A stretch of DNA of 64,000 nucleotides. Source: Rheinheimera mangrovi. GTDB lineage: Bacteria > Pseudomonadota > Gammaproteobacteria > Enterobacterales > Alteromonadaceae. Positions 13,703 to 57,229 of this stretch are shown here, in pieces. Under the pieces are notes generated by a model. The model worked only from the letters and a program-made list of their open reading frames with translations, ran no database searches and had not been told where the DNA came from. Numbering within the stretch: the stretch's first letter is position 1; the number at the start of each line of letters is the position of its first letter. A program made the position numbers and the translations under genes. Location: contig NZ_CP034683.1 in assembly GCF_003990335.1 (NCBI RefSeq), positions 2,432,501-2,496,500 on the forward strand. The letters run 5' to 3'.

Positions 13703-15490
13703 TCAATTAATCATGACCATAGCGGCTTTCAGGGTTAGCTCTGTGCCCCCCTGAACCTGAGCTGTCATGTTGCCTTTTGCCGAATACTGCAGCTGGGCCG
13801 TATCCTTAATATTGTTCCCTGTTGTGCTGACATCGCCACCAGAGCTTTGAATATCAATGCCGGTATTGCCCTTGATACTGACCTTTTGCCCTGCCTGTAA
13901 GTTAATGTCTTTATCGCTTTTGATGGTGATACCTGACGAGGTCATCAGCAGTGAGTTGCCATTCTCGTCTTTCACTTCGATCTGCTTATTTTTGTCATCC
14001 AATACAACTGTGTTTTGCCCCGGCGTGGTCAGCGTCAGTATTTTGTTTTCGTCATCAAACATGATGCGCAGCTCACTTTTAGTGACTATGCCTTTCATGC
14101 TGTTTTTTTCATTTGGAGTAAAATCGGAATATGGCTTGTTTTTTTGACTGTAAACACTACCGAGGATCACCGGATAACGCGGGTCCTGGTTCAAAAAACC
14201 CAGAATGACTTCGTCGCCAACTTCAGGTAAAAAGAATGCGCCTTGCCCTTGGGTTGAATAAAAATTGGCCAGCCTTGCCCATAAGCCTGCCCCTTGGTCG
14301 TTAAACAACGCGACCTCAACCAGGATCCGATATTCGCTATCCGGATCGGCGTTTATTTTGACAACAGTTGCGTTAAACAAGCCTGCAATGCCGGGTACTA
14401 ATCCAGCTGCAGACGGCGCTTCCACTTCATGTTCTTGCACAAACCATTCTTGCGACAAGCCAATATTGACTTCAGTAGCCCAGTTACCATCAGAAATGTC
14501 ATGCCGCACCGAAGACACGAAATGATCGCCATCAAAACGAGCGCCCATGCCGGCCAGGGTCACATAATTTCCGGGCACAACCACAGCTGTACCCTGAAAG
14601 CGCGCATCTCCTGTTATTTTGGACAATTCACTTTTTAACATCTGTGCTTTGGCCCAACTTTGGAGTTCATCAGTGCTCTCTGCGGCCGTTGTTTGCAGCT
14701 CGTAGTTGGCTAACCCCACCACTTCAGAAAGCGTTTTGCTGCTTAAATTCCCAGGGCCTGCCAGATTATTAGCAGCCTGCGCTGTGGTTAATTTTTGATT
14801 GGGGTAATCCCAGGCGCTCGCGGTGACCTGTGCCAACTGAGTGATGGCGTTCAGGTCGGCATTAAATTCAAATAGATTGTTGCCGTAGGTCAAAGTCAGA
14901 ACAGAAGAGGTCTCTGTGACAGGATTAAACACCGTCACTTTATTATTGATGGTGCTGACCAGCATGCTGTTCACTTCAGCACGCGCCAACATGAAGTCCC
15001 AATCAGTCACATAATATTGCACCAATTCGGCTAATTGGTTTGAAGTAGCTGTGACAGACGCAGTTAACCCTGCCTGAGCCTGGATCAGCGTACTGATCAC
15101 ATCACTGTCCTTAGTTTTGCTAAAGGCAGCGCTTTTGCGCCCGACAGTCATTTTTACCGCTTTATCTTTGCATTCGATCTCAAGTATGGGGCCGCTGGTG
15201 TTGGCTACACGCAGTGATTGTTTCGTTACTATGCCACTAAAGAGCAGTGTGTTTTTACTGTCGTAGCCCACTTCGATACTGATCTCGTTGCCCGGCACAA
15301 AAACAGCCGAAGCGCTGATGACAAAAGATTCTTTGGCGGCGTCGCCGTCCAACAAGGAAATAGTGGCAGTTGCAATACGGTTAATCGTCTGCTCAATATG
15401 TATGGCATACACCTGATAGGCATCCGGTATGGCGGAGCCAGCCGTCTTGATGCTACATGTCACAACACCGCCAGGTTTTGTATTAGGCAT
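13703..15490 (-). CDS. VgrG-like central spike protein (Afp8-like)
   Basis: A 595-residue protein with gp27-like N-terminal beta barrels (roughly residues 1-370), a gp5-type OB fold around residues 375-465 containing the PEVGDEVILGFLNQDPRYPV block, and a C-terminal repeat of short strands with regularly spaced Lys, Ile, Asn and Gly that forms the beta-helical needle. It makes the trimeric hub and spike. It overlaps the LysM gene by eight bases and is followed by the PAAR tip gene. No extra C-terminal effector domain is present, so this spike is structural rather than an evolved effector. Confidence 0.9.
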   Translation of the reverse strand: MPNTKPGGVVTCSIKTAGSAIPDAYQVYAIHIEQTINRIATATISLLDGDAAKESFVISASAVFVPGNEISIEVGYDSKNTLLFSGIVTKQSLRVANTSGPILEIECKDKAVKMTVGRKSAAFSKTKDSDVISTLIQAQAGLTASVTATSNQLAELVQYYVTDWDFMLARAEVNSMLVSTINNKVTVFNPVTETSSVLTLTYGNNLFEFNADLNAITQLAQVTASAWDYPNQKLTTAQAANNLAGPGNLSSKTLSEVVGLANYELQTTAAESTDELQSWAKAQMLKSELSKITGDARFQGTAVVVPGNYVTLAGMGARFDGDHFVSSVRHDISDGNWATEVNIGLSQEWFVQEHEVEAPSAAGLVPGIAGLFNATVVKINADPDSEYRILVEVALFNDQGAGLWARLANFYSTQGQGAFFLPEVGDEVILGFLNQDPRYPVILGSVYSQKNKPYSDFTPNEKNSMKGIVTKSELRIMFDDENKILTLTTPGQNTVVLDDKNKQIEVKDENGNSLLMTSSGITIKSDKDINLQAGQKVSIKGNTGIDIQSSGGDVSTTGNNIKDTAQLQYSAKGNMTAQVQGGTELTLKAAMVMIN

Positions 15491-20424: not shown

Positions 20425-20828
20425 GTTATTTATCCTGTAAATCCGCTACTTGTGTGAGATCTGTAGTACTGGACGAACTGTTATTGCGGTAGTGGGGAAT
20501 AGCATTTGGTGCTGACGAACTTCGTTACCTCGCACTGTATCTTTCGAATCGCCGGACTATTCCCTTAACTGACGCAAAACAACTGTGTGATCGCGATTTC
20601 AAGAGTAGTGGCGTATCGATTCAGAGTTAAGTATCAACGAGGTAACAGTTCTAAGATGTTACGGTATAGTATCTAATATCTGGACGGATTTTTTATGCCT
20701 GACATTTGATTCCATTAAATAATGACCTTTTTCAGAAAAATCTAATTTTTCAAAAAATTTATTGGCTTTTTTATAGACAGTTCGTGTACATTCATTTTCT
20801 GATTTAGTGACAAAAATAAGGAACAGCT
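20425..20828. other. divergent intergenic region upstream of the eCIS operon
   Basis: About 400 bases between the first eCIS gene (minus strand) and the small repeat-protein gene (plus strand). No gene or clear terminator is seen. The half nearest the plus-strand gene is very AT-rich (about 20650-20800). Both transcription units must start here, so it should hold the eCIS promoter and any regulator sites. I see no convincing -35/-10 pair or operator palindrome by eye. Confidence 0.5.
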
Positions 20829-21155
20829 ATGCAAGTCAATTTAAATACACCAAGCACAGTAGCTACACCAACACCACAGACTGTTGCTCCTGCAGCCCAG
20901 ACTAAAACCAATACTACAACTGCACCTTCTACTGCAGATACAGTGACATTATCTGCTGAAGCAAAGGCTAAATTTGCTGCAGATTTGGAGGCAGAAGCCT
21001 TAGGCAATGGGTCGGGCAATGAGCCTCCAATCAAAACTTTAGGTGGAGGCTGGGGCAACGAGCCACCTATGACCACCTTAGGGAATGGTTCTGGTAACGA
21101 ACCACCAATCAAGGATAAAGATAAAGAAAAGGAAGAGGACAACGGTGTGGTTTAA
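20829..21155 (+). CDS. small low-complexity protein with three GNEPP repeats, function unknown
   Basis: A 108-residue protein. Residues 1-37 are rich in Thr, Pro, Ala and Gln. A segment TADTVTLSAEAKAKFAADLE follows, then three head-to-tail 13-residue repeats of the form LG[NG]G[SW]GNEPP[IM]xx at residues 58-96 (bases 21000-21116), and a charged Lys/Asp/Glu tail. The repeats differ at many silent positions, so the protein sequence is being conserved. There is no signal peptide. AAGGAACAGCT precedes the ATG. It starts a three-gene plus-strand operon, five bases before the next gene. I do not recognise a family; a repeat scaffold, a short secreted protein or a multi-core peptide precursor are untested options. 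Confidence 0.7.
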   Translation: MQVNLNTPSTVATPTPQTVAPAAQTKTNTTTAPSTADTVTLSAEAKAKFAADLEAEALGNGSGNEPPIKTLGGGWGNEPPMTTLGNGSGNEPPIKDKDKEKEEDNGVV

Positions 21156-21160
21156 TAAAA

Positions 21161-21652
21161 ATGGGCGAATTTGCTTACAGAATTGACCATGTATTGTGGT
21201 TGATTTGTTTTCTGTTGTTGATTGTATCCATGGTCTATAAGCTAGATATTTCCTCAAGAATAGCCTTAACCGTATGGGTTATAGGCAATTTGGTTATGGA
21301 TAAAGCACAACCCTTTGTAATGGATCTCGCAACTGTCTATGAAGATACAGGGCCATCGTTTTGGTACATCACTTGGAGTGCTGTTGATGTATTGTGTGTT
21401 TGGTGTATTTACAAATTACATATAGTACACGATATTCCAGCTAGTAAACTGACCCGCTATATCATGGTCTGCTTGTTAAGCTTATGTGCTTTGCAGTTTA
21501 TGCGATACGCCGACAGAATGATTTTTGATACAAACTTGTTATCTGAAATGTACAAATATACCATTGTTTCTATTAATATTTCTGTAGTGCCATTCGCTAT
21601 CTTCTGGTTTGTTCAGGATATACAAACTCTAAGAAAAGGAGTCGTCTTATGA
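21161..21652 (+). CDS. multi-pass inner membrane protein of unknown function
   Basis: A 163-residue hydrophobic protein with about five predicted membrane segments: residues roughly 10-28, 33-50, 68-85, 103-118 and 137-153. Short polar loops carry Asp, Lys and Arg residues. The C-terminal tail (QDIQTLRKGVVL) is short and positively charged. It lies five bases after the repeat-protein gene and overlaps the next gene by four bases, so the three are one operon. No transporter or enzyme motif is recognised. The size and topology would also suit a holin-like or signal-sensing role, which is speculation. Confidence 0.7.
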   Translation: MGEFAYRIDHVLWLICFLLLIVSMVYKLDISSRIALTVWVIGNLVMDKAQPFVMDLATVYEDTGPSFWYITWSAVDVLCVWCIYKLHIVHDIPASKLTRYIMVCLLSLCALQFMRYADRMIFDTNLLSEMYKYTIVSINISVVPFAIFWFVQDIQTLRKGVVL

Positions 21653-21975
21653 TTGAATTTTTATCACTGATCGTGCTGGCTGTACTGATGTTAAGTGGCC
21701 TCTTTTGGTATAAAAAAACTTGTCGCCACTTAACAGTGAAAGAAATAGAACAGCGGGTTTCACAGCAAATGGAACTCAGAGCGCACAAACTTTGTATGCA
21801 AGCCTTTGATGTGCAAAGAACCAGCGAAGCTGAAGAGCGCAGTCAACTAGACGAACAGTTTCAAGACGACTTGCATCTGTATGTAGAAGACTTCCAGGCA
21901 GAAGTAGCAGAAAGCTTAAAACAAAACAAAGTGCTGGATATTGAGAGTTATGGCTTTATCAGGCTGACTAAATAG
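21649..21975 (+). CDS. membrane-anchored coiled-coil small protein
   Basis: A 108-residue protein with an N-terminal hydrophobic segment (residues about 2-20, LSLIVLAVLMLSGLFWY) followed by a Lys/Arg-flanked cytoplasmic or periplasmic helix rich in Glu, Gln, Arg and Ala (residues 25-95), likely a coiled coil. Its ATG overlaps the stop of the preceding membrane protein gene, so the two are probably co-translated and may form a complex. The operon appears to end here, before a convergent gene. The family is not recognised. Confidence 0.68.
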   Translation: MIEFLSLIVLAVLMLSGLFWYKKTCRHLTVKEIEQRVSQQMELRAHKLCMQAFDVQRTSEAEERSQLDEQFQDDLHLYVEDFQAEVAESLKQNKVLDIESYGFIRLTK

Positions 21976-21998
21976 CGACCTTTGATCTGCCGCAGCAT

Positions 21999-22634
21999 TT
22001 AGTTAGCCCATTGTTTCTGATACTGATAAAACGCAGGTCTGGCCAGACTTAGGTTTGGCAGATGCTGCTTTTTTAAGTAATGCTGGATCGCCAGTTGAAC
22101 CTGACGCACTGCATCCAACAACTCTGCCAGATTAAACTCCTCGGTATGGAACACAAAGGTTTTACTGGCAGGCTCAAGCCAGCAAAACATAGCTTCGTTG
22201 TCCATCCACGTAATCACCTGATTAAAACTGGTTAAGTGATGAGCGTTGTAACGACGCAGTTTATTATTACTACTATCCCGAACTGAATGATCCAACTCAT
22301 CTGCATGTCGCCACAAGGCTTGATTACGAAGTGCATGATTAAGATCAGGTAAGTTAATTTCACCACGCAGCGCCATAGCCCTGTGACATAGTTCCAGCCC
22401 CTGCTCTCCGCAGCATTTGGCGGGCCAGAATATCCGGGATAATTGGTAGGTATGGATCAAAATAAGATGTACGGCGTCGTACATATCTTCACAAGCCCTC
22501 CGTTGACAATCCCAGTCTTCAGACCAATCATGCAATTGTTTAATGGCCCGGTCCAGCTCCTGTCCGGCTTCAAGGATTAACTCTGATTGCAGCTCAGCTT
22601 GTTTTATATGTAGCAGTATTTCTTTGGCATCCAT
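21999..22634 (-). CDS. uncharacterised helical protein
   Basis: A 211-residue, mostly helical protein with no signal peptide. It has a His/Trp-rich middle part (HDWSEDWDCQRRACEDMYDA near residue 35, and an HADELDHSVRD stretch near residue 110). An AGGAG ribosome binding site precedes the ATG at 22634. It converges on the three-gene operon, with only 23 bases between the stops. I do not recognise a domain; the pattern of repeated helices with conserved His and Asp could suit a metal- or nucleotide-binding helical bundle, but this is not demonstrable by eye. Confidence 0.65.
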   Translation of the reverse strand: MDAKEILLHIKQAELQSELILEAGQELDRAIKQLHDWSEDWDCQRRACEDMYDAVHLILIHTYQLSRIFWPAKCCGEQGLELCHRAMALRGEINLPDLNHALRNQALWRHADELDHSVRDSSNNKLRRYNAHHLTSFNQVITWMDNEAMFCWLEPASKTFVFHTEEFNLAELLDAVRQVQLAIQHYLKKQHLPNLSLARPAFYQYQKQWAN

Positions 22635-23005
22635 TTCAACACTCCTGTAAGACGAGACAACACCCTTAATCGGGTACTCTATGTGTTGAGTGTAGAAAGC
22701 ATCAAGGGCTTTGCAAGCCAGCTAAAATAACGCTAAGTTATAGATTTTTCGATAATTACCTATTTCAGGTTTGCTGGTAAATCTAAGCTGCTGAGTTATC
22801 GTGATATCAACTCTTTTGGTTTTTTCATATTTTTTTGTATTTATTTTCAACTATCTGCGGCTTAATTGGGTAATTCTGCAGATCTGACACCACTGCGCAT
22901 CGAATAAAGTGACCGCTGTAAAACAGTCGTTCATCAAATAGTTACATCTGTTTTTTAAACTTTGACGTACAATAACCGACTTTTTCGTCGCCTCTGAGGA
23001 ATTTT
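22635..23005. other. AT-rich intergenic region between divergent genes
   Basis: About 370 bases upstream of both the 211-residue protein (minus) and the ABC exporter (plus). It contains T-rich stretches near 22800-22860 and a GAGGA ribosome binding site just before the exporter ATG. No gene or terminator hairpin is seen. It presumably holds promoters for both directions. Confidence 0.5.
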
Positions 23006-24847
23006 ATGCTGGGCTTTTTTGAACGATTAACCAAACCTTTCCCTGATGACGAGCCAACTCAGCCGCCTCAAGGCTTATTTGCGTTTTGTTTGCACTACAG
23101 CAAAGGTATGGTGCTGCCGCTGATCCTGATGTCTATTGCAACAGCGCTGCTGGCTGCGCTGGAAGTCTCATTATTTGGTTATATGGGCCAATTGGTGGAT
23201 TGGCTGGTGAATAAAAACCCGGACACCTTCTGGCAGGAAGAGCAAGATACCTTAATCACCATGGCAGTCGTGATGCTGGTAGTGCTACCCGCTTTAGTAT
23301 TTTTCCACTCAGCATTGATCCACCAGACGATATTGGGTAACTACCCTATGTCGATTCGCTGGTTAGCGCACCGTTATTTATTAAAACAAAGCCTTGGCTT
23401 TTATCAGAATGAATTCGCCGGCCGTATCGCCACTAAGGTTATGCAAACGGCTCTGGCTGTGCGCGAAACCGCCACCAAGCTGCTGGATGTAATGGTGTAT
23501 GTAGTGGTTTATTTTGGTTCTATGGTGTATCTGATAGCAGATGCTGACTGGCGCTTGGTACTGCCTATGCTTGCATGGTTAGTTATCTACACCGGCTTAC
23601 AGTTCTATTTTGTGCCGCGCCTAAAACAGGTTGCTACTGAACAGGCCGACGCTCGCTCAGAAATGACAGGCCGTATTGTCGACAGCTACACCAATATCAG
23701 TACCATTAAACTGTTTTCTCACACAGCACGTGAATCTGATTATGCCCGCGACAGCATGCAGCTGTTTCTGGTGCCTGTATACAAACAAATGCGTCTAGCC
23801 ACCTGGCTGAATATTTGTGTGCAGGGCCTGAATTATCTGTTGGTATTCTCTATCGCTACTCTGGCGATATGGTTATGGTCGGTCAATGCTGTCACTGTGG
23901 GTTCTATTGCCATAGCCGTCAGTCTGGCGTTGCGTTTAAACGGTATGTCGCAATGGATCATGTGGGAAGTCAGTGCGCTGTTTGAAAATATAGGTACTGT
24001 GGCTGATGGCATTGCCACTTTGTCTCAGCCTCAGCAAATCGTTGACATAGCAACGGCTAAGCCTATCGAAGTACCAGAGGGACAGATTGAATTTAAACAA
24101 CTTAACTTTAACTACGGTAAAGCCGCAGGCGAACATGGCCCCGTCATTGATGGCCTTGAATTATCGATTAAACCGGGTGAAAAAGTAGGATTAGTGGGTC
24201 GCTCTGGTGCAGGTAAATCGACGCTGGTGAACTTGTTACTGCGTTTTTATGATGTTAATTCCGGCCAGATTTTAATAGATGGCCAGGACATAAAAACCGT
24301 ATCACAGGAAAGCTTACGTGCTCATATCGCAATGGTGACGCAGGATACCTCTTTGCTGCACCGCACTGTGCGTGAAAACATTCTATATGGTCGCCCTGGT
24401 GCTACCGAAGCAGAAATGATTGAAGCAGCTCGCTTGGCCGAAGCCGATGCTTTTATTCAGGAACTGACCGACCCTAAAGGCAATAGTGGCTACGACGCTC
24501 AGGTCGGCGAACGTGGTGTAAAACTATCAGGTGGTCAACGTCAGCGTATTGCTATAGCACGGGTGTTATTGAAAAACGCTCCTATCCTTATTCTGGATGA
24601 AGCAACCTCAGCACTGGATTCAGAAGTGGAGGCGGCCATTCAGCACAGTCTGACTCAGCTGATGATAGGAAAAACTGTGATAGCGATAGCACACCGTTTA
24701 TCTACTATAGCTGCCATGGACAGGCTGATAGTGCTGGACCAGGGTCGTATCGTTGAGCAAGGCAGCCATCAGGAACTGATCGCCAAAGGTGGTATTTATG
24801 CGCAGTTATGGGCGCATCAAACCGGTGGTTTTATTGGTGTGGAATAG
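23006..24847 (+). CDS. ABC-type exporter, fused permease and ATPase
   Basis: A 613-residue half-transporter with a membrane domain of six segments (residues about 30-330) and a C-terminal ATPase. The ATPase has a Walker A (GRSGAGKST, near 398), a signature LSGGQRQRIAIAR (near 507), a Walker B ILILDEATSALD (near 530) and an H-loop AHRLSTI (near 562). It would work as a homodimer exporting lipids, drugs or peptides, like MsbA-type proteins. It converges with the GST-like gene, with 35 bases between the stops that contain a short hairpin. A truncated or whole gene of this type (abct) accompanies gst and blaPER on several mobile resistance elements, which makes its position here notable. Confidence 0.9.
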   Translation: MLGFFERLTKPFPDDEPTQPPQGLFAFCLHYSKGMVLPLILMSIATALLAALEVSLFGYMGQLVDWLVNKNPDTFWQEEQDTLITMAVVMLVVLPALVFFHSALIHQTILGNYPMSIRWLAHRYLLKQSLGFYQNEFAGRIATKVMQTALAVRETATKLLDVMVYVVVYFGSMVYLIADADWRLVLPMLAWLVIYTGLQFYFVPRLKQVATEQADARSEMTGRIVDSYTNISTIKLFSHTARESDYARDSMQLFLVPVYKQMRLATWLNICVQGLNYLLVFSIATLAIWLWSVNAVTVGSIAIAVSLALRLNGMSQWIMWEVSALFENIGTVADGIATLSQPQQIVDIATAKPIEVPEGQIEFKQLNFNYGKAAGEHGPVIDGLELSIKPGEKVGLVGRSGAGKSTLVNLLLRFYDVNSGQILIDGQDIKTVSQESLRAHIAMVTQDTSLLHRTVRENILYGRPGATEAEMIEAARLAEADAFIQELTDPKGNSGYDAQVGERGVKLSGGQRQRIAIARVLLKNAPILILDEATSALDSEVEAAIQHSLTQLMIGKTVIAIAHRLSTIAAMDRLIVLDQGRIVEQGSHQELIAKGGIYAQLWAHQTGGFIGVE

Positions 24848-24852
24848 TCACT

Positions 24853-24869
24853 GGGTCAGAGCTAACAGC
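24853..24869. repeat. short intergenic hairpin between convergent genes
   Basis: CAGAGCT-AAC-AGCTCTG forms a perfect seven-base stem with a three-base loop just after the ABC exporter stop. No T-run follows on either strand, so if it helps end transcription from either convergent gene it is not a standard intrinsic terminator. Confidence 0.45.
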
Positions 24870-24882
24870 TCTGCCCCTGCCT

Positions 24883-25458
24883 TTAGCTTAAACGCGGATC
24901 AGTTTCAGCCACCATAGGCTGTTTTAAGTGCTCAGTTCTGAACTGCAATAACACTGGAAAAGGCTTTAAATCAACCAGATCACGGAATAAAATCCAGTCA
25001 ATTAATGTATACAGGCTAATAGCCGTGTAGTCCCATTGACCAAATTGCCCTGCCCTGATCTGTTGCTCTAAGGCTTCCAGAGTTGCCTGAATACGCTCAT
25101 GCTGTAGATTAAAAAACAACTTATCTTCAGTCACATCGAAACCTGAACGTTTACAAAGCAATAGTTCAACCAGCGAATCTGTGCAGGCGTTGATCGTCGT
25201 CAGGCTGTTTTCCTGATCCCAGCTCAAAGGCGGTAGTTTTAACTTTTGCGTCAGATAACGGTAAATCACACCGGAATCAAAAATAACCTGTTCATTATCC
25301 ACCAACACCGGCACTTTACGGGCCGGGTTGTGTTTTACCAGCACAGAACGGCCTTCGGATTCAAAAATATTCAAAGCTACAAACTGATAAGGCTGACCAG
25401 CCAGCACTAAACGTAAACGACGCACAAAAGGCGAAGCGACCGAACCTAATAACTGCAT
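24883..25458 (-). CDS. glutathione S-transferase-like protein (gst)
   Basis: A 191-residue GST. The N-terminal thioredoxin-like domain begins MQLLGSVASPFVRRLRLVLAG (listed here in part) and contains the NPARKVPVLVD cis-Pro block near residue 45 and a conserved DSGVIYRYL motif near residue 62, where the glutathione gamma-glutamyl group binds. The C-terminal helical domain is short. A Ser near residue 9 in the active-site position suits a bacterial or theta/beta-like GST. It lies 73 bases downstream of the beta-lactamase gene in the same direction, and the pair is found in the same arrangement on mobile blaPER elements. It probably has no part in resistance. Confidence 0.88.
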   Translation of the reverse strand: MQLLGSVASPFVRRLRLVLAGQPYQFVALNIFESEGRSVLVKHNPARKVPVLVDNEQVIFDSGVIYRYLTQKLKLPPLSWDQENSLTTINACTDSLVELLLCKRSGFDVTEDKLFFNLQHERIQATLEALEQQIRAGQFGQWDYTAISLYTLIDWILFRDLVDLKPFPVLLQFRTEHLKQPMVAETDPRLS

Positions 25459-25531
25459 AACCTACTCCATTTTTAGATCATGACTGCAGTTTATACCTTT
25501 AATAAGTCGTTTAGATAGTGCTGATTTTTGT

Positions 25532-26458
25532 TCAATCCGGGCTCACTGCAGAGATTTTTTTCAGTTCAAACTGATAAGCCGCTTGGGCAACCTGCGCAAT
25601 AATAGCTTCATTGATTCGTTCTGATTCAGCCGAATCCTTGACAAATACCGCCACCAATAATGGCCTCCCATCAGGCAACATAATGACTCCCGCATCATTC
25701 GTCGCAGCGGTTTTACCGGCTCTGATGCCCGAAGTGCCGGTTTTATGCGCCACAATAGTACCCACCGGCAATAAGCCTTTTAACCGCTGTGGTCCTGTGG
25801 TGGTTTCAACCATCCATTTCCACAATAAAGCCTGAGAGGTTTCAGATAACTGCTTTTTTTGTTCAAACTTTTTCAAAAGTTGAGCCACTGCTTTCATCGA
25901 CGTCCAGTTTTGATATTGCACCTGATCATCCGCATGCATTTGCGCTTCATTTGCTACCACGGCAACTTCCTTAACGCCTAAAGACTGAATATAAGCATGC
26001 AAAGCTTGCGGCCCGCCCACCAGTTCAAATAACAAATCGCAGGCTACGTTATCACTGTGGGATACCGAGTACTGCAGCAGTTGTTGCAGCGGAACAGCAA
26101 ATTCATCGCCTTGATATTCTTTCATTATAGGCGCCCAGGTATTTTGTAATACTGCAGCACGATTAACAGTAACAGACTGATTTAAACTCAGTTTCCCCTG
26201 ATCGACCTGATGCAGAACTAACATGGCCAAATGCAGTTTAAATACACTTTGCATCGGAAACTTTTCAAATGGATTCAGCAACAAAGGTTCCAGATCGTCA
26301 GGCCCCCACACTGCTACACCTACAGTGGCCTTTTTACCCGTCACTATGGTTTCAATCTGCTCTTTTAACAAAGGAGACTGAGCTGATACTACAAATGAAC
26401 TCAAGCCAAGTATCAGCAGAGCAAAAGTGGTGAAAATACATTTTGTGATGACATTCAT
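25532..26458 (-). CDS. blaPER-like: class A beta-lactamase, PER type
   Basis: A 308-residue class A serine beta-lactamase with a signal peptide ending near the SSFVVSAQ junction. It has the nucleophile motif SVFK (Ser near residue 71), SDN (near 133), the catalytic-base region NEAQMH (near 169) and KTG (near 239). Stretches such as KKATVGVAVWGPDDLEPLL, EFPMQSVF-type context and HADDQVQYQNWTS are those of PER enzymes as I remember them, with scattered substitutions. PER enzymes hydrolyse oxyimino-cephalosporins. An AAGGA ribosome binding site lies seven bases before the ATG. It sits just past the DUF3300 gene's terminator with no insertion sequence or other mobile element adjacent, followed by gst and an ABC exporter. 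It should be read as a resident chromosomal gene, with exact subtype not assigned. Confidence 0.9.
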   Translation of the reverse strand: MNVITKCIFTTFALLILGLSSFVVSAQSPLLKEQIETIVTGKKATVGVAVWGPDDLEPLLLNPFEKFPMQSVFKLHLAMLVLHQVDQGKLSLNQSVTVNRAAVLQNTWAPIMKEYQGDEFAVPLQQLLQYSVSHSDNVACDLLFELVGGPQALHAYIQSLGVKEVAVVANEAQMHADDQVQYQNWTSMKAVAQLLKKFEQKKQLSETSQALLWKWMVETTTGPQRLKGLLPVGTIVAHKTGTSGIRAGKTAATNDAGVIMLPDGRPLLVAVFVKDSAESERINEAIIAQVAQAAYQFELKKISAVSPD

Positions 26459-26490
26459 ACGACTGTCCTTGTTATTTTTTTAGTGGATTG

Positions 26491-26520
26491 TACAAAAGGC
26501 AGCCGCAGCTGCCTTTTGTA
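26491..26520 (-). terminator. intrinsic terminator of the DUF3300 gene
   Basis: A perfect 13-base stem (TACAAAAGGCAGC paired with GCTGCCTTTTGTA) and a four-base loop lie 16 bases after the DUF3300 stop. On the minus strand the descending arm ends CTTTTGTA, supplying part of a U-tract. It lies directly upstream of the beta-lactamase gene and separates the two transcription units. Confidence 0.7.
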
Positions 26521-26535
26521 TTTTGTTTCATACTG

Positions 26536-28053
26536 TTAGTTGATTTCCCTGTTCCGCATTTCCGGAGCCTGAGCCCGTGCTCTCTCGACACGAGGAGCTT
26601 CACTGCGAGGACGTTCCATTCGCTGTTGTTCGATACGAGGTGCCTGATAATTACGTTCCACCCGAGGCTGTTCTACCCGTGGTGTCTGGTAACTACGTTC
26701 CACCCTAGGTTGTTCTACCCGTGGTGTCTGGTAACTACGTTCCACCCTGGGTTGTTCTACCCGAGGTGTCTGGTAATTAGGTTCTGGCCTTGGCTGTTGC
26801 ACGGGGCGTTCAAATTTAGCTTGCTCAGGGCGCGTAGGCTGATAAGAGCGTTCAGGGCGCGCTATGTCTTGCCTCGGCTGTTGCTCCGGCCGTTCAAATC
26901 TCTGTTGTTCACGGTTCTTGATCAGTTCCTGACGTAACACCTGATCCCTATCCCTTACTTCACGTGACTTGCCAGGTTCAACCTGAGCTCGTGGACCTTC
27001 TTCTTTCGCACGACGAATAAGATCATCACCTTTTTTATTGCGTTCAAACTGACGCTCTTTGTCGGCGAAGCGTTGTTCTTTCTCATGATTAAACTTGCGA
27101 TCCGGAGCATAGCCCTTGTTCTCGCGTGTTTGAGCAGCCCATTCACGGTGCTGATCCCTGTTCTGATAGCTACGATTGCCGCTGAACTCACGGGTTGGCT
27201 GGTAACCGGCGTGGTAACTGACACCACGTCTGTGGTGCGGGTTGTGACGCCAATGATGCGAATTTTTGTGATGTACTATCTGGTGGCTGCGATAGTAATA
27301 GGGGTCGCGCCAATGATGATGATGATCGATCACCACAATCTGACGGCGCGGCCAGTGAAAGCTGCTGAAATAGAATCCCGGTGCAATCTGAATACCAACA
27401 CCCCAGGAAAAACCACGATGCACCGCATAACCCACAGGCACATGCCAATACACTGGCGGATAGCTGCGCCACCACCAGGGTCCATACACAATTTGTGGGT
27501 CATAATATGGCAGATACACCACTTGTGGCGAAGCAGATTCAATGATGATGGTTTTTTCTTCCCTCACCACTTTGATATGTTGCTGTTTATCCAGATTACC
27601 CGAGGCATAAGCTTTATTACGCAAGGTCTGGATACTGGTCATCACCTGGGCTTCCTGACCTAAAAATGCATCGCCCAAACGTTGGGTCCAGTCGATGTCA
27701 TCACTCATACGTTCAAGCAGTTGCGGGAAAGGGACTAAAGCTTTTACACTTGGATCCCAATCCAAATCTTCCACTTCATCCAGTGCCCGCTCAGCACTAT
27801 AACCTGGATGTTCTTCTACCCAACGATTGGCTTTAATAATTTCCAATGGATAAGTGGAAGCAATCAGTACATGCGACAACACAGTATCCGGGTACAGAGC
27901 AATAGGAGCAAGCATAGCGTCCAGCTCAGCCTGACTAAAACTTTGCACAGTGCTACCGGCACTGGCGGTCTGTTGTGCTGCCACAGGGGCAACTAACAAG
28001 GCTGGAAATAAAGCCGCTGAAAGCAAAGGTAAGCATTTCATCAGGGCACGCAT
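26536..28053 (-). CDS. DUF3300 family exported protein with tandem repeat tail
   Basis: A 505-residue protein with a signal peptide (MRALMKCLPLLSAALFPALL start, cleaved after VAAQ). Residues about 35-170 match DUF3300: QAELDAMLAPIALYPDTVLS, then YPLEIIKANRW and further Asp/Trp-containing helices. A His/Trp/Tyr-rich segment follows (residues 190-290). The C-terminal third is Arg, Glu, Gln and Pro rich, with three tandem 42-base units (26647-26772) coding for a YQTPRVEQPRVERS-type repeat. The protein is predicted to be periplasmic or surface-exposed; function is not known for the family. The repeat number is likely to vary between strains. An AGGAG ribosome binding site precedes the ATG. Confidence 0.85.
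   Translation of the reverse strand: MRALMKCLPLLSAALFPALLVAPVAAQQTASAGSTVQSFSQAELDAMLAPIALYPDTVLSHVLIASTYPLEIIKANRWVEEHPGYSAERALDEVEDLDWDPSVKALVPFPQLLERMSDDIDWTQRLGDAFLGQEAQVMTSIQTLRNKAYASGNLDKQQHIKVVREEKTIIIESASPQVVYLPYYDPQIVYGPWWWRSYPPVYWHVPVGYAVHRGFSWGVGIQIAPGFYFSSFHWPRRQIVVIDHHHHWRDPYYYRSHQIVHHKNSHHWRHNPHHRRGVSYHAGYQPTREFSGNRSYQNRDQHREWAAQTRENKGYAPDRKFNHEKEQRFADKERQFERNKKGDDLIRRAKEEGPRAQVEPGKSREVRDRDQVLRQELIKNREQQRFERPEQQPRQDIARPERSYQPTRPEQAKFERPVQQPRPEPNYQTPRVEQPRVERSYQTPRVEQPRVERSYQTPRVEQPRVERNYQAPRIEQQRMERPRSEAPRVERARAQAPEMRNREIN
26647..26772 (-). repeat. three tandem 42-base repeats in the DUF3300 gene
   Basis: Units start at about 26647, 26689 and 26731, with a few base differences, and keep the reading frame (14 codons per unit). 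Degenerate partial units lie on both sides. Such in-frame repeats can change length by slippage or recombination. Confidence 0.85.
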
Positions 28054-28249: not shown

Positions 28250-29134
28250 CTAGGCTTTGACTCTGAAAAGAGCTGAAGGTTTAAAACCTGTGACCAGCGA
28301 AGTGCCGGTGATCACCACGGCAACCCCCACAAAAGTATGCCAACCTAACACTTCATTTAAAAACACATGGCCCCAGAACACACCAAATACCGGAATAAGA
28401 AAAGTGACGGTTAAAGCCGGAGTCGCGCCTTCGTCCTGCACCAGGCGGAAAAAGAGTAAATAAGCTACGCCTGTACAAATAACCCCAAGGGCTAATACAG
28501 CTGCAGCCACATTCAAACTGATATCTGCCTGTATCGGGAATAACAGCATGACAGGAGCCAGCATCAAAGCTGATGTCCACATACTGCCATGCGCATTGGT
28601 ATAAGGGGCTACAGTTTTTGCCAGACGGGTATAGTGAGTGGCTATGCCATAACAAAAGGCGGCGCCAGCGGCGCAAAATACAGCAACTAAAGCACCAGGT
28701 TCCAGTACTACAGGGTCAAAGCCTACCAGTATAGCGACGCCGCTGATGCCAAGAATTAAACCCGTCGCAATTCGAAAAGTTAAAGCTTGCCGGAACACCA
28801 CAATACCAATCAAAGCGCCCCAGATAGGAGCTGTCGCATTAAGCACAGATAACACCGAAGCTGTTAAAGTTTGAGCTGCATAGGCAAACAATAAAAACGG
28901 CAAGGCAGAGTTAAAAAAACCGAGAATAAAAAAGTGCTTCCAGTTATTTTTTAAATCCAGCTGATGCTTTTTAAGCAACCAGCCCATCAGTCCCAAAAAT
29001 AAAGCAGCAAATAACACCCTGCCCGTCATCAAAGCAGCAGGACCTAAAGTTCCGACTGCAATGCGCATAAACAAAAATGAAGACCCCCAGATGGCGGCCA
29101 AACTGAACAGACGGATAAAACTGGCTGCCTGCAT
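28250..29134 (-). CDS. EamA/DMT-family exporter
   Basis: A 294-residue membrane protein with ten predicted transmembrane helices in two EamA repeats. The N-terminus (LAAIWGSSFLFMRIAV) and the C-terminal PVFGVFWGHVFLNEVLG block near residue 248 are typical of DMT permeases. It probably exports amino acids or metabolites; the substrate is not indicated. The ATG at 29134 has an AGGAG ribosome binding site. About 195 bases separate it from the DUF3300 gene downstream. Its upstream region also contains a terminator for the preceding dcd gene. Confidence 0.88.
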   Translation of the reverse strand: MQAASFIRLFSLAAIWGSSFLFMRIAVGTLGPAALMTGRVLFAALFLGLMGWLLKKHQLDLKNNWKHFFILGFFNSALPFLLFAYAAQTLTASVLSVLNATAPIWGALIGIVVFRQALTFRIATGLILGISGVAILVGFDPVVLEPGALVAVFCAAGAAFCYGIATHYTRLAKTVAPYTNAHGSMWTSALMLAPVMLLFPIQADISLNVAAAVLALGVICTGVAYLLFFRLVQDEGATPALTVTFLIPVFGVFWGHVFLNEVLGWHTFVGVAVVITGTSLVTGFKPSALFRVKA

Positions 29135-29242
29135 TTAATACTCCTGTACGCAATCAACCTCAGGGTGGTGCTATGACCAGGCCTAGGAAGTCTTTGGATA
29201 AATTCTGTTTTACTAACTAGATATTCAGTTTTTTCGCAAAAA

Positions 29243-29269
29243 AATGAAAAAAACCCAAAAAGCCGGGTT
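29243..29269 (-). terminator. intrinsic terminator downstream of dcd (minus strand)
   Basis: On the minus strand AACCC-GGCTTTTT-GGGTT is followed directly by a T-run and T-rich sequence, the usual form of a Rho-independent terminator. It lies 108 bases after the dcd stop and just upstream of the EamA gene. Confidence 0.65.
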
Positions 29270-29327
29270 GCGAAGCTATGCAGAGATATTGCATAATTAC
29301 CCCGCTTCATTTTTGCTTTATTGCTTC

Positions 29328-29355
29328 AGCCCATACCATTTTGTATGGGCTTTTT
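29328..29355 (+). terminator. strong plus-strand terminator with no plus-strand gene upstream
   Basis: AGCCCATAC and GTATGGGCT form a nine-base stem with a six-base loop followed by TTTT C on the plus strand. The nearest upstream plus-strand gene ends at 24847, so it does not obviously terminate any known gene. It may end an unannotated small RNA starting near 29225, or block antisense transcription into dcd. Confidence 0.65.
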
Positions 29356-29376
29356 CATTTCTGGATCAGTAGCTCT

Positions 29377-29967
29377 TTATTTAGGATCGTCCTGACTAAT
29401 ACGGCTGGCCACAGCACCGGTTTGCTGTTGATACTTTGCATCCACTCTTTTGTTGTAAGGACGGGCAGCTTCACCTGTCATGGTCTCGAAATTCAGTGCG
29501 CCAATTTTCATATTAGGCCGAAGCGCCAGCGGTAAACGACCACTGTTGTAAAACTCCAGCACTATATTGCCAGACCAACCCGGGTCGATACGATGAGCTG
29601 TCACATGCACCATTAAACCAAGGCGGGCTAAGGAAGAACGACCATCTAACCAGCCTACAATGTCGGCAGGCAAAGTGACAGATTCAAGCGTGATAGCCAA
29701 AGCCAGTTCGCCCGGGTGCAGAAAAAAAGCTTCGTCATCTGTTAATACAATTTCATCACTCATCACTGAATTCAGCGCTAAATCCACTTCTTCGCGTGGG
29801 CCACTCAGATCGATAAAAGGTGCTGCGTAAGCGCGGAAAGTGCGGAATTTATGGCCTAAGCGAATATCCACACTGACACCGCTGATCATGTCTGGTGTTG
29901 GCCGTGGCGTAATTTGGATCTTGCCTGCTTCGATATAGGCTTCAATGTCGCGGTCACACAATCTCAT
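29377..29967 (-). CDS. dcd: dCTP deaminase
   Basis: A 196-residue enzyme deaminating dCTP to dUTP for thymidylate synthesis. The start [17 protein letters not shown] and the core [17 protein letters not shown] with the catalytic Glu in [10 protein letters not shown] are standard for Dcd. Length and layout match the Escherichia coli protein closely. It lies two bases after the apbC stop, so the two genes are co-transcribed, as often seen in gammaproteobacteria (apbC/mrp-dcd). Confidence 0.95.
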
Positions 29968-29969
29968 GG

Positions 29970-31058
29970 TTAATCATCCGTAAAAATAATTTCGGGTTGC
30001 TTTGCTTGCTGATGTTGGGAGTTCCAATATAAAGCAAAGCTCAGTTGTCGTGCTATAGCCCGGTAAAAACCAGTACCGCTTTCGGCTGGGTTCAGCACTA
30101 AAGGCGTTCCGGCATCACAGGACTGGCGTATTTGTTTTTGTAAGGGTAACTGACCCAGCACAGGCACCTGATAACGTTCAGCTAATTCTAAGCCGCCATT
30201 GGTACCAAAAATATCGTCGATTTCACCGCAGTGACTGCACTGGTAAAAACTCATGTTTTCTACCAGTCCAAGCACAGGAATATTCACGCTGCGAAACATA
30301 GATATAGCTTTTTGCGCGTCAGCCAACGCCACATCCTGCGGTGTTGTGACGATCAAAGCCCCTGTCACCGGAAGTTTTTGCGACATAGTCAGTTGAATAT
30401 CGCCTGTGCCAGGCGGCATATCGACAATTAAATAATCTAAATCCGGCCACAAGGTTTCATTTAAAAGCTGTAACAAGGCCTGACTGGCCATAGGGCCACG
30501 CCAGACCGATGCTTGTGTAGGGTCGACTAAAAATCCTATAGACTGCAGATAAATACCAGCCGCTTGTTTTGGCAACAAATGTTTATCATCCGGTGATTCT
30601 GCTTTGGCGTCTTTTAACCCCAACATAGTTGGAATGGAAGGACCATAAATATCGGCATCCAACAGCCCTACTTTGGCGCCTTCTAAACCTAAAGCCACCG
30701 CCAAATTGACCGCAGTGGTGCTTTTACCTACACCACCTTTGCCAGACGCCACTAAAATCACCTGTTTGATGTTGCGGTAGACAGGTTCTGCAGTGTTTTC
30801 GCTGCTTAATTCAAGCCTGAGGTCTGGCTGCACCTGCTGAAGCACCGGCAATAACTCATCAGCCAGAGAGGCCCATGGAAACTTCAGCGTTAAGCTCAGG
30901 CTATTGTATTTGCTATTAAAACTGGCCTGCTGAATCAAAGTATCCAGCGGCATAGGAAATTCGTTGCTTTGAAATTCAGCCAAAGTTTTGGCTAATGCTT
31001 CCGGCATCTGTGCCGAAGCTGACTGCTCTGCTGCTTTTTTAAACCATTTAAACCACAT
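29970..31058 (-). CDS. apbC: Fe-S cluster carrier ATPase ApbC/Mrp
   Basis: A P-loop NTPase of about 362 residues that carries and delivers iron-sulfur clusters. It has an N-terminal FSCA-like domain, a deviant Walker [16 protein letters not shown] near residue 105, and the CSHC cluster-binding motif near residue 272 ([15 protein letters not shown]). An upstream TTG at 31103 would add 15 residues without a ribosome binding site; ATG at 31058 ([12 protein letters not shown]) has a weak GAGTGAG site, so I start there. It is divergent from metG, the arrangement common to Enterobacteria and relatives. Confidence 0.93.
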
Positions 31059-31224
31059 CGTCTCACTCGATCTGTGTTGCTGAAGGGGTTCTATTCCTGC
31101 CAACTGTATTTTCTGTAAGCTTTGCCAGCTTTTCAGCGCTTTGCTGCTGTTGAACTGGTGCGCTTTAACGCCGGCTATTGTATCATTAAGCCACTTTTTT
31201 CAGTGATATATCTATGAGTTATCG

Positions 31225-33288
31225 ATGACACAACGCAAAATTCTTATCACCAGTGCTTTACCTTACGCCAATGGCCCCATTCACTTAGGTCATATGCTGG
31301 AATATATTCAGACTGATATCTGGTCCCGTTTCCAAAAAGCCCGTGGTCATCAGTGTTATTACGTCTGTGCGGACGATGCTCATGGCACGCCAATTATGCT
31401 TAAAGCTCAGCAGCTGGGTTTAACGCCTGAGCAAATGATTGCTCAGACTGCCAAAGAGCATCAGGCTGATTTTGCTGAATTTTTAATTGGTTTTGATAAC
31501 TATCACAGCACGCACAGTGAAGAGAACAAGCAGTTCGCCAGTGAGATTTACACCAAGCTGGATCAAGGTGGTTATATAAAACGCAAAACCATCAGCCAGC
31601 TGTTTGACCCGGAAAAACAAATGTTCCTGCCGGACCGTTTCGTTAAAGGCGACTGCCCGAAATGTGGTGCTTTGGATCAAAACGGCGACAGCTGTGACTC
31701 CTGCGGCGCGACTTATAGCCCGACTGAACTGAAAAACCCACGTTCTGTGGTCTCTGGCGCAACGCCAGTGTTAAAAGACAGCGAACACTATTTCTTCGAC
31801 CTGCCTGCTTTTGAGCAAATGCTAAAAGACTGGACCCGCAGTGGTTCATTGCAGGACGAAATGGCGAACAAACTGCAGGAATGGTTTACCGAAGGTCTGC
31901 AACAATGGGATATCAGCCGCGACGCACCATATTTTGGTTTTGAAATTCCAGGCGCGCCAGGCAAGTTTTTTTATGTCTGGTTAGACGCCCCTATCGGCTA
32001 CCTGGCCAGCTTTAAAAACTACTGTGATAAAACCGGCGTTAACTTTGACCAGTTCTGGCAAAAAGACTCAAAGGCTGAGATTTACCACTTTATCGGTAAA
32101 GACATTATCTATTTCCACAGTCTGTTCTGGCCAGCTATGTTAGATGGCGCAGGTTACCGTAAACCGACCTCTGTCTATGCGCACGGTTTTGTTACTGTCA
32201 ACGGCGCCAAAATGTCCAAGTCACGCGGCACCTTTATCAAAGCCCGTACTTATCTGGAACATTTAAACCCGGAGTATCTGCGTTATTACTTTGCGTCCAA
32301 GCTGACCAGCAACATCACAGACTTAGACTTAAATCTGGAAGATTTCGCGCAAAAAGTGAATGCAGATTTGGTTGGCAAAGTGGTCAATATCGCCAGCCGC
32401 TGTGCCAGCTTTATCAGCAAAAAATTCGATGGCAAGTTAAGTGCCGAGATTGCAGAACCTGCTTTATTAGCAGAGTTCACAGCCGCTGGCGAAACTATTG
32501 CCGAAAGCTTTGAAAAACGTGAATTTGCCCGAGCTATTCGCGAAATTATGGCGCTGGCCGATAAAGCCAACCAATACATTGACGCCAAAGCGCCTTGGGT
32601 GCTGGCAAAAAATGAAGCGACCTTAACCGAAGCGCATTTGGTCTGCTCTATGGGCATCAACCTGTTCCGCGTACTAATGCATTACTTAAAACCAGTGCTG
32701 CCGGCCATGGCTAAAGAAGTGGAACTGTTTTTAAACGACGAATTAAGCTGGTCGACGTATCAGACTGCTTTAACCAATCACAGCATCAATGTATTTAAGC
32801 CACTGATGCAACGTGTAGAAATGACAAAGGTAGAAGCTATGGTCGAAGGATCTAAAGAGAACTTACAACCTACAGCTGCTGCACCAGTGGCTAAAGCCGC
32901 TGCGGAAACAAAAGCAGCCCCTGCTGCCGATTCAGCAGAAATCGCCATTGAACCAATAGGCGAAACCATCAGCATTGATGACTTTGCCAAACTGGATTTA
33001 CGGGTTGCCCGCATTATCAACGCCGAACATGTGGAAGGCGCTGACAAACTGGTGAAACTACAGCTGGATTTAGGCAACGAGCAACGTCAGGTGTTCGCCG
33101 GCATTAAATCTGCGTACCAGCCGGAGCAGTTAATAGGCCGTCTGACTGTGATGGTTGCCAACTTAGCACCTCGTAAAATGCGGTTTGGCATGTCCGAAGG
33201 TATGGTCATGGCCGCAGGTCCTGGCGGCAGCGATATTTTCCTGCTGACGCCAGATGATGGGGCTACGCCTGGAATGCGAGTGAAGTAG
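31225..33288 (+). CDS. metG: methionyl-tRNA synthetase with C-terminal tRNA-binding domain
   Basis: A 687-residue class I synthetase charging tRNA-Met. It shows the HIGH motif in [12 protein letters not shown] at residues 14-25, the zinc-knuckle region [18 protein letters not shown] near 147, and KMSKS near 330. After an Ala/Lys-rich linker (about 550-575) the C-terminal Trbp111-type domain begins [14 protein letters not shown], and mediates dimerisation and tRNA binding. Length is that of the two-domain dimeric form. A terminator follows the gene. Confidence 0.97.
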
Positions 33289-56398: not shown

Positions 56399-57229
56399 GT
56401 GCGCTGGCTTTGTAACATGTTGGATGTGCATCCCAGTGGATACTATGCGTGGAGTAAGGCATCGCTGTCGAAACGCGATAAAGCAAACCGGCGGCTGACA
56501 GGATTAATAAAACAGTTTTGGCTGGAGTCTGGTTGTGTGTATGGCTACCGTAAAATTCATTCTGATTTACGTGATTTCGGCGAGTCTTGCGGCATTAACC
56601 GGGTATACCGGTTGATGCAATCCGAAGGGCTTAAAGCACAGGTTGGATATCGCAAACCCAGATCACGTAAGGGGGACAGCCATATCATTACGCCGAACCG
56701 CTTGCAGCGGCAGTTTAATCCGTTAGTGCCTGACGAGGTATGGGTAACTGATATCACGTACATCCGCACGCATGAGGGGTGGCTGTATTTGGCTGTGGTT
56801 GTGGATTTGTTCTCGCGCAAGGTTGTTGGCTGGTCGATGCATTCCCAAATCAGCAAAGATATTGTGCTGAACGCATTGCTGATGGCCGTGTGGCGACGTC
56901 AGCCTAAAAAACAGGTGATGGTTCACTCCGACCAAGGGAGCCAATACACCAGCCATGACTGGCAGGCATTCCTGAAAACTCATGGCTTACAAGGCAGCAT
57001 GAGCAGACGCGGAAACTGTCATGACAATGCAGTGGCAGAAAGCTTCTTCCAGTTGTTAAAGCGAGAGCGGATCAAGCGGAAAGTCTACACGACGCGTGAT
57101 GAGGCCAGAAGTGATGTGTTTGATTACATTGAAATGTTTTACAACAGTAAACGGAAACATGGTTCCAATAATCTGCTGTCACCGGTAGAGTATGAAAACC
57201 GTTACCAAGAACGGCTGGGAAGTGTCTAG
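56399..57229 (+). CDS. IS3-family transposase OrfB (DDE integrase)
   Basis: A 276-residue DDE transposase with Asp in VWVTDITYI, Asp in VHSDQGSQYTS near residue 182 and Glu in DNAVAESFFQLLKRE near residue 217. The stop is within the right inverted repeat. The frame is -1 relative to OrfA, and the run of seven A residues at 56321-56327 (CTA AAA AAA) gives a slip site for an OrfAB fusion; translation likely runs from about 56322 in the fusion. Confidence 0.92.
   Translation: MRWLCNMLDVHPSGYYAWSKASLSKRDKANRRLTGLIKQFWLESGCVYGYRKIHSDLRDFGESCGINRVYRLMQSEGLKAQVGYRKPRSRKGDSHIITPNRLQRQFNPLVPDEVWVTDITYIRTHEGWLYLAVVVDLFSRKVVGWSMHSQISKDIVLNALLMAVWRRQPKKQVMVHSDQGSQYTSHDWQAFLKTHGLQGSMSRRGNCHDNAVAESFFQLLKRERIKRKVYTTRDEARSDVFDYIEMFYNSKRKHGSNNLLSPVEYENRYQERLGSV

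Follow-up and report, generated by a model that had tools for sequence, protein, structure and literature searches.

The closest described system to the locus reported here is the blaPER gene of Pararheinheimera. The PER row in Table 1 of PMC7782503 names Pararheinheimera spp., more than one co-mobilized gene, a range of 78-96%, the elements ISPa12, ISPa13 and ISCR1, and a mobile genetic element that is absent in the origin. That article credits the genus-level origin of PER to Ebmeyer, Kristiansson and Larsson (2018, IJAA), gives PER-1, PER-2 and PER-6 as an example of multiple independent mobilisations, and in its treatment of recent origins lists five criteria, with identity cut-offs of 90% for a genus and 95% for a species. 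We analyzed a blaPER locus (here called bla and its neighbours) in a stretch of 64,000 nucleotides of the Rheinheimera mangrovi chromosome (NZ_CP034683.1, positions 2,432,501 to 2,496,500; referred to below as the window), the genome being a single contig of 4.63 Mb. The genus group, the co-mobilised neighbours and the insertion sequence (IS) partners that we found are those of the published row. An original prediction, made from the letters of the window alone, had proposed that this locus or a close relative was the source of mobile blaPER; according to PMC7782503, the genus-level part of that idea was already in print. What is done here is a survey of empty sites in 22 genomes, a comparison of donors and junctions for each mobile element, and a point concerning PER-7.

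We hold with high confidence that the window contains the native chromosomal blaPER of a Rheinheimera/Pararheinheimera species, and that the origin proposed below is, as a whole, the best explanation. The gene neighbourhood is ancestral, gst and abct are long resident in it, and bla is an addition. PER-2 and PER-1 each have a separate nearest chromosome, which indicates that they come from different donor lineages of one genus. The features of the locus are as follows.
25532..26458, minus strand: bla, PER-family class A (subclass A2) beta-lactamase, 308 aa, NCBIfam NF000389
24883..25458, minus strand: gst, glutathione S-transferase-like, 191 aa, Pfam GST_N, GST N-terminal domains
23006..24847, plus strand: abct, MsbA-like ABC exporter, 613 aa, Pfam ABC_membrane and ABC_tran
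26490..26521, no strand assigned: terminator-like hairpin between DUF3300 and bla, 14-pair stem
26536..28053, minus strand: DUF3300 gene, the ancestral upstream neighbour, Pfam DUF3300 (307 bits)
28250..33288, no strand assigned: core anchor genes eamA-like, dcd, apbC/mrp and metG, in conserved order in genus genomes

In order to compare the locus across the genus, the DNA around abct was read in 21 genomes besides that of the window (G000). The exporter gene is present in all 22, and gst adjoins it in the window and in all 21 others, cut by a contig end in G018. Wherever the contigs extend far enough, the genes follow in the order abct, gst, DUF3300, eamA-like, dcd, apbC, metG, except in two genomes: G010, in which no eamA-like gene was found, and G007, which has only part of apbC and in which no metG was found in spite of about 5 kb of remaining contig. 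The shared order of the anchor genes fixes the locus as chromosomal and orthologous. A bla gene with 76-100% amino acid identity occurs in 12 of the 22 genomes, always adjoining gst; it was seen between gst and DUF3300 in 11, and in the twelfth (G004) the contig ends within bla. The divergent locus is thus found in several species of the genus with the same neighbours. Of the ten bla-less genomes, G018 lacks the DUF3300 side of the locus and is unreadable there. In the remaining nine, 43-139 nt separate the DUF3300 stop from the gst start, with a hairpin-like sequence by eye, and these readable empty sites hold no trace of bla, only a 6-residue chance match (E 5.1). Since gst lies beside DUF3300 where bla is missing and bla lies between them elsewhere, gst and abct are passengers, as the original prediction had supposed, and its proposed check for synteny in related genomes came out in its favour. 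The identity of abct to the window divides the genus in the same way, being at least 93% in the 12 genomes with bla and at most 79% in the 10 without, and bla was most simply gained once, in one clade.

The mobile elements were compared with the 12 chromosomal loci. The following stretches of the window are involved.
21329..26586, plus strand: homologous to blaPER-2 plasmids, all of it in Klebsiella pneumoniae pKpn33002, and from 22910 in Citrobacter freundii pCf164_LMB-1
22007..26517, plus strand: homologous to the blaPER-1/ISCR1 element, 81.6% over 4519 nt
20786-20983: further piece matching the blaPER-1/ISCR1 element, 83.8% over 198 nt
21999..22634, minus strand: 211-aa gene from the open reading frame (ORF) list, part of both the PER-1/ISCR1 segment and the longer of the PER-2 segments

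At E<=0.001 the 211-aa gene matches no Pfam or NCBIfam family. Of these loci, the window comes closest to the blaPER-2 element of C. freundii pCf164_LMB-1 (L030), at 93.64% over 3680 nt, followed by R. faecalis and G021 at 88.7%; gene by gene, the nucleotide identity of the element to the window is 94.8% in abct, 91.3% in gst and 92.2% in bla (93.5% for the bla protein). K. pneumoniae pKpn33002 (L054) matches the window at 92.0% over 2885 nt and 93.3% over 2390 nt, on either side of a Tn3-family insertion. These blaPER-2 plasmids are collinear with the window up to 26586 at 92-93.6% identity. Unlike the window, they are conjugative plasmids in which the segment lies among other mobile elements, with ISPa12 beside bla in pCf164_LMB-1 and a Tn3-family transposase within abct in pKpn33002.

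The blaPER-1/ISCR1 element of Acinetobacter johnsonii pXBB1-9 (L031) has the same gene block as the window, but its nearest chromosome is that of R. tangshanensis CGMCC 1.6362 (95.92% over 5690 nt; 95.6% in abct, 96.7% in gst, 96.5% in bla); R. faecalis follows at 82.8% and the window at 81.6%. The bla gene of the window is 78.5% identical to PER-1 in nucleotides and 85.1% in amino acids. The ISPa13-gst'-blaPER-1-ISPa12 arrangement of A. baumannii p17-84_OXA, which we take to be Tn1213-like, keeps only bla and a shortened gst and is 96.0% identical to R. tangshanensis. Overall, an R. tangshanensis-like lineage matches the elements with blaPER-1/3/4 and with blaPER-7 at about 95-96%, which points to it as their donor. 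L031 also matches R. tangshanensis fully through a variable stretch left of abct, the other chromosomes only in part. The short genes there (window 21161-21975) have 28-94% identity to the window among species and were not found in G009; because they vary so strongly, this spot helps to tell donor lineages apart.

Searches of plasmid records gave a similar division. With the window region (the 'near' search) there were 100 records, 17 at 90-95% and 83 at 80-90%; with the R. tangshanensis region there were 102, comprising 79 at 95-99%, 4 at 90-95%, 17 at 80-90% and 2 lower, one of which is an unrelated 141-nt match. These counts, which were not matched record by record, are compatible with 17 PER-2-type and 83 PER-1-type records. 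The alignment of bla, gst and abct with mobile elements, which the original prediction had proposed as a check, thus bears out the source idea for the genus and for nearness to blaPER-2, but not for blaPER-1/3/4/7. Its statement that mobile blaPER elements carry gst and abct agrees with the collinear copies on plasmids.

Set beside the published criteria, the mobile forms have ISPa12, ISPa13 or ISCR1 next to plasmid-borne blaPER, and gst and abct are collinear between chromosome and plasmids. The window locus itself lies among core neighbours, without an IS or ISCR1 flanking bla and without a match to ISPa12 or ISCR1. For identity, the R. tangshanensis locus, at 95.9% to PER-1, is above both the genus and the species cut-off. 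The window is below both for PER-1, and its 93.6% to PER-2 lies above 90% and below 95%, which supports the genus, rather than the species of the window, as the PER-2 source. In its core flanking genes the window shares no more than 88.9% identity with the nine other species compared, so that it appears to represent a species of its own, and the PER-2 donor would then be a near relative.

Trees pair PER-2 with the window (bootstrap 100 for bla, 90 for gst, 100 for abct and 100 for the joined genes) and PER-1 with R. tangshanensis (100 in all four). For ten species, with G004 and G008 left out for their short contigs, the bla data do not reject the core-gene tree built from eamA, dcd and apbC (AU test, p 0.12; Robinson-Foulds distance 4).

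Several observations weigh against the explanation that we favour. The species cut-off is missed, and the nucleotide divergence of 6.4% from the PER-2 element, with a silent divergence of 0.24-0.39, means that the donor was not the window itself. Support is weak (33-60) at some deep nodes in the gst and bla trees. In the bla tree the window branch is 0.086 and that of PER-2 0.006, compared with 0.031 and 0.028 for abct; the window bla or PER-2 may have recombined, or the window bla may have evolved faster. The PER-2 protein is equally near to an environmental entry (P0002) and to the window, 288/308 in both cases. In addition, no consensus promoter was found directly ahead of bla.

Recombination signals were sought with triplet shuffles, which ignore rate variation along genes. 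PER-1 and R. tangshanensis share a 495-nt run with one mismatch, against 4.7% difference overall, and 0 of 2000 shuffles reach it; the PER-2/window runs were reached by 98 (no mismatch) and 242 (one mismatch) of 2000. Control pairs without suspected exchange gave 19 and 5 of 2000 for window/G021 and 2 and 4 for PER-2/G021, while G021/R. faecalis, with 680 and 798, was not exceptional. As control pairs also beat most shuffles, the test is too lenient, and the 495-nt tract is suggestive of, but does not prove, recombination within one R. tangshanensis-like population.

The original prediction had also named DUF3300 and its terminator as the ancestral left boundary. DUF3300 is indeed the ancestral border, but not a common cut, since the captured segments stop at differing edges. 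In the ISPa13/ISPa12 element (L085), foreign DNA starts 14 bp before the ATG. In the ISCR1 elements with PER-1 and PER-3 (L031, L055, L087) it stands directly before the terminator hairpin, and in the PER-7 element (L086) the junction is about 12 bp further out, of which 7 bp are sure because the first five could belong to the ISCR1 end repeat. The PER-2 elements with ISPa12 (L030, L089) have their junction inside DUF3300, at window position 26586, and carry the last 51 nt of that gene. All junctions lie within about 130 bp of the start codon. By eye, the ISCR1 end beside blaPER (L031, L055, L087) has differing partial duplications of the terminal sequence between plasmids.

We propose that bla entered one clade of the genus in an ancestor of that clade, at the position between the DUF3300 terminator and gst, while the core neighbourhood abct-gst-DUF3300-dcd-apbC was otherwise fixed, and that the gene was then inherited vertically. 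Parts of this neighbourhood would later have been mobilised by insertion sequences in several related species. For blaPER-2, which is now found next to ISPa12, the source would be a relative of the window's species; blaPER-1/3/4/7, today flanked by ISCR1 or placed between ISPa13 and ISPa12, would come from an R. tangshanensis-like lineage. In this scheme gst and abct moved only as next-door genes.

The same gene block on plasmids could also be explained if a mobile blaPER element had recently inserted into the window chromosome. This is highly improbable: abct and gst stand in the same order in bla-less genomes of the genus, the bla-bearing genomes have neither ISPa12 nor true ISCR1, and the bla tree is compatible with the core tree. 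Moreover, the chromosomes differ by 6.4% and 4.1% from the nearest mobile elements, whereas substitutions between mobile copies of one type mostly number 0-2 over 1.3-5.7 kb (PER-7, with 19, and L088, with 12, are the exceptions). Equally hard to credit is a single donor species for all mobile PER, with PER-1 and PER-2 diverging after they left the chromosome. Both kinds share the gene block and both occur with ISPa12, but in bla, gst and abct alike the two kinds pair with different chromosomes, at 93.6% and 95.9%, and the full match of the PER-1 element to R. tangshanensis in the variable stretch left of abct points the same way. The PER-1 and PER-2 copies are 15% (abct), 19% (gst) and 20% (bla) apart, a divergence that would be implausible within decades. 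A presence of bla in the ancestor of the whole genus, with loss in 10 genomes in place of a single gain, is unlikely, though clearly less so than these two. Two of the ten bla-less genomes (G007, G020) have distant class A genes elsewhere, at 39-41%, which would suit such losses; on the other side, the nine readable empty sites are clean, and the presence and absence of bla follow the abct split exactly. We retain donation by several lineages after a probable single gain.

Within that origin, PER-7 could be a plain mutant of the PER-1 element, with no separate capture. Six other PER-1-type loci were compared with L031. Substitutions number 2 in about 5.7 kb in Raoultella (L055), 2 in 3829 plus 3 gap positions in Aeromonas PER-3 (L087), 1 in 5574 in Providencia PER-4 (L091), 2 in 1411 in A. 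baumannii (L085) and 0 in 2037 in the remnant on a K. pneumoniae NDM-1 plasmid (L090). PER-7 differs at 19 of 2680 sites by blastn (20 of 2681 by alignment), and the differences are clustered. At its ISCR1 junction about 7-12 bp of additional donor DNA are retained. In the 70 nt that end 5 nt before the ATG, the PER-7 leader has exactly the R. tangshanensis sequence, from which the PER-1 leader departs. On the other hand, PER-7 is still 99.3% identical to PER-1 over 2680 nt and both adjoin ISCR1; the last 5 nt before the ATG are the same in the two, and the last 12 nt in PER-7 are the PER-1 sequence and not that of R. tangshanensis. The A. gerneri locus L088, whose PER gene is broken, has 12 substitutions in 5675 plus 17 gap positions, so that higher divergence is not unique to PER-7. 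In all 20 differing columns one of the two agrees with R. tangshanensis, a pattern that would be expected from simple divergence and that fits donor variation as well. On balance the plain mutant is doubtful, and the comparison suggests, as the reading that we favour, a further, separate capture of PER-7 or recombination with a chromosome. Among the titles and abstract openings searched on PER-7, blaPER and Rheinheimera, none mentions a separate PER-7 capture.

Taking the elements together, we lean slightly towards repeated capture, with at least three liftings: one of PER-2, out of a relative of the window's species, and one each of PER-1 and PER-7, out of two different members of a single recombining R. 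tangshanensis-like population, all with junctions within about 130 bp of the start codon. PER-6, known from the literature, would add one more. If this is correct, the differences between PER-1 and PER-7 would be standing variation of the donor and not the result of hospital evolution. Since captures in different species fall, with differing junctions, in the same 130 bp, the genus appears to act as a standing reservoir that may continue to supply new PER variants. A clinically important family of extended-spectrum beta-lactamases is seen here in its native chromosomal setting with its passenger neighbours identified, and the search for donors is narrowed to two lineages, one for each main mobile type.

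The gene itself agrees well with the PER family, as the original prediction had read from its motifs. The ORF scores 673.1 bits against the curated blaPER model NF000389 (cut-off 650) over the full length 1-308. The precursor has the class A motifs SVFK at 71, SDN at 135 and KTG at 239, together with E171, presumably the catalytic omega-loop Glu. It aligns without gaps with PER-2 of the solved structure PDB 4d2o, and its three best structure matches by sequence are PER-2 (4d2o), a chain named 'Beta-lactamase' (6dgu) and PER-1 (1e25). The product is predicted to be exported and to hydrolyse beta-lactams. The directions that had been given for the neighbours hold as well, with ORFs and Pfam domains in agreement: gst follows bla after 73 nt in the same direction, and abct is convergent with gst. 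The hairpin in the gap between DUF3300 and bla has a predicted RNA fold of -22.6 kcal/mol (z -4.70), and 0 of 200 shuffles were as good.

A better match for mobile blaPER in another genus would have spoken against this source; in the class and family samples there was none. In a sample of 369 class genomes, G000 itself is the only one with a bla match at E<=1e-60, and among 395 of the family the 12 strong matches (at least 76%) all belong to this genus, with five more at 39-42%. In a protein search, 8000 candidates were scored and the best 120 taken. These include 58 full-length PER-like entries with 99% to 68% identity (57 at 76% or more, counting the window's own cluster) and one fragment; the next entries are at 50% or less, a gap which indicates that the PER likeness of the window bla is not due to chance. 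Most of the first non-PER-like proteins are unnamed, but named ones include Chitinophaga, Arcicella and Pedobacter, besides Rheinheimera marina at 47%. This is a hint of a deep Bacteroidota origin of bla; several deep nodes in the tree of these entries are weak. Matches at 60-80% identity were found in 718 of 5426 E. coli genomes, no record covering 80% of the query; in the 20 matches listed the matching part is 118 nt long and carries the annotation of a type I secretion ATPase.

That no mobile element lies nearby had also been claimed, and this holds. The ISPa12 and ISCR1 transposases have no match in the window genome at E<=0.001 (ISPa13 was not searched separately). An IS3-family-like transposase ORF at 56399-57229, about 30 kb from the locus, is the sole transposase-like one noticed among ORFs of at least 150 aa. 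Resident capture machinery in the genus was considered and rejected. The 12 bla-bearing genomes have no match to ISPa12, and ISCR1 matches occur in only 3 of the 22 genomes, as fragments (G014) or at 23-24% (G002, G006). ISPa12-like matches are confined to PER-less genomes: G010 has a 61% relative besides two matches that are short or weak, G014 has broken pieces, and G020 has one weak match. The 61% relative of the ISPa12 transposase lies at G010:C15:413-1657 (L079).

Adaptive change of PER-1 after capture was likewise dropped as unconvincing, because only one of five tests fell below 0.05, uncorrected. Silent and replacement codon differences in bla are 15 and 13 between PER-1 and R. tangshanensis. 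Set beside the 46 and 20 that separate the window from PER-2, these values gave a Fisher p of 0.16; set beside four chromosomal pairs, they gave p 0.07, 0.01, 0.09 and 0.12. By branch, PER-1 has 3 silent and 5 replacement differences and R. tangshanensis 10 and 5, with 5 unresolved.

The PER-1 remnant on K. pneumoniae pKP27_NDM1 (L090, 4004-6040) consists of 2037 nt that agree at every position with the PER-1 element's left flank; its neighbours are blaNDM-1 and a transposase of the IS91 type. No blaPER is annotated in the fetched stretch, and the piece is a footprint of an earlier PER-1 element.

To the left of the locus, window positions 82-20424 hold a run of genes resembling a contractile injection cluster. 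The two proteins that were checked have phage sheath (17387-18967) and baseplate hub/injector (13703-15490) domains. Of the 11 other loci with bla, four (G001, G004, G006 and G013) also have the two genes of this cluster that lie nearest to the locus.

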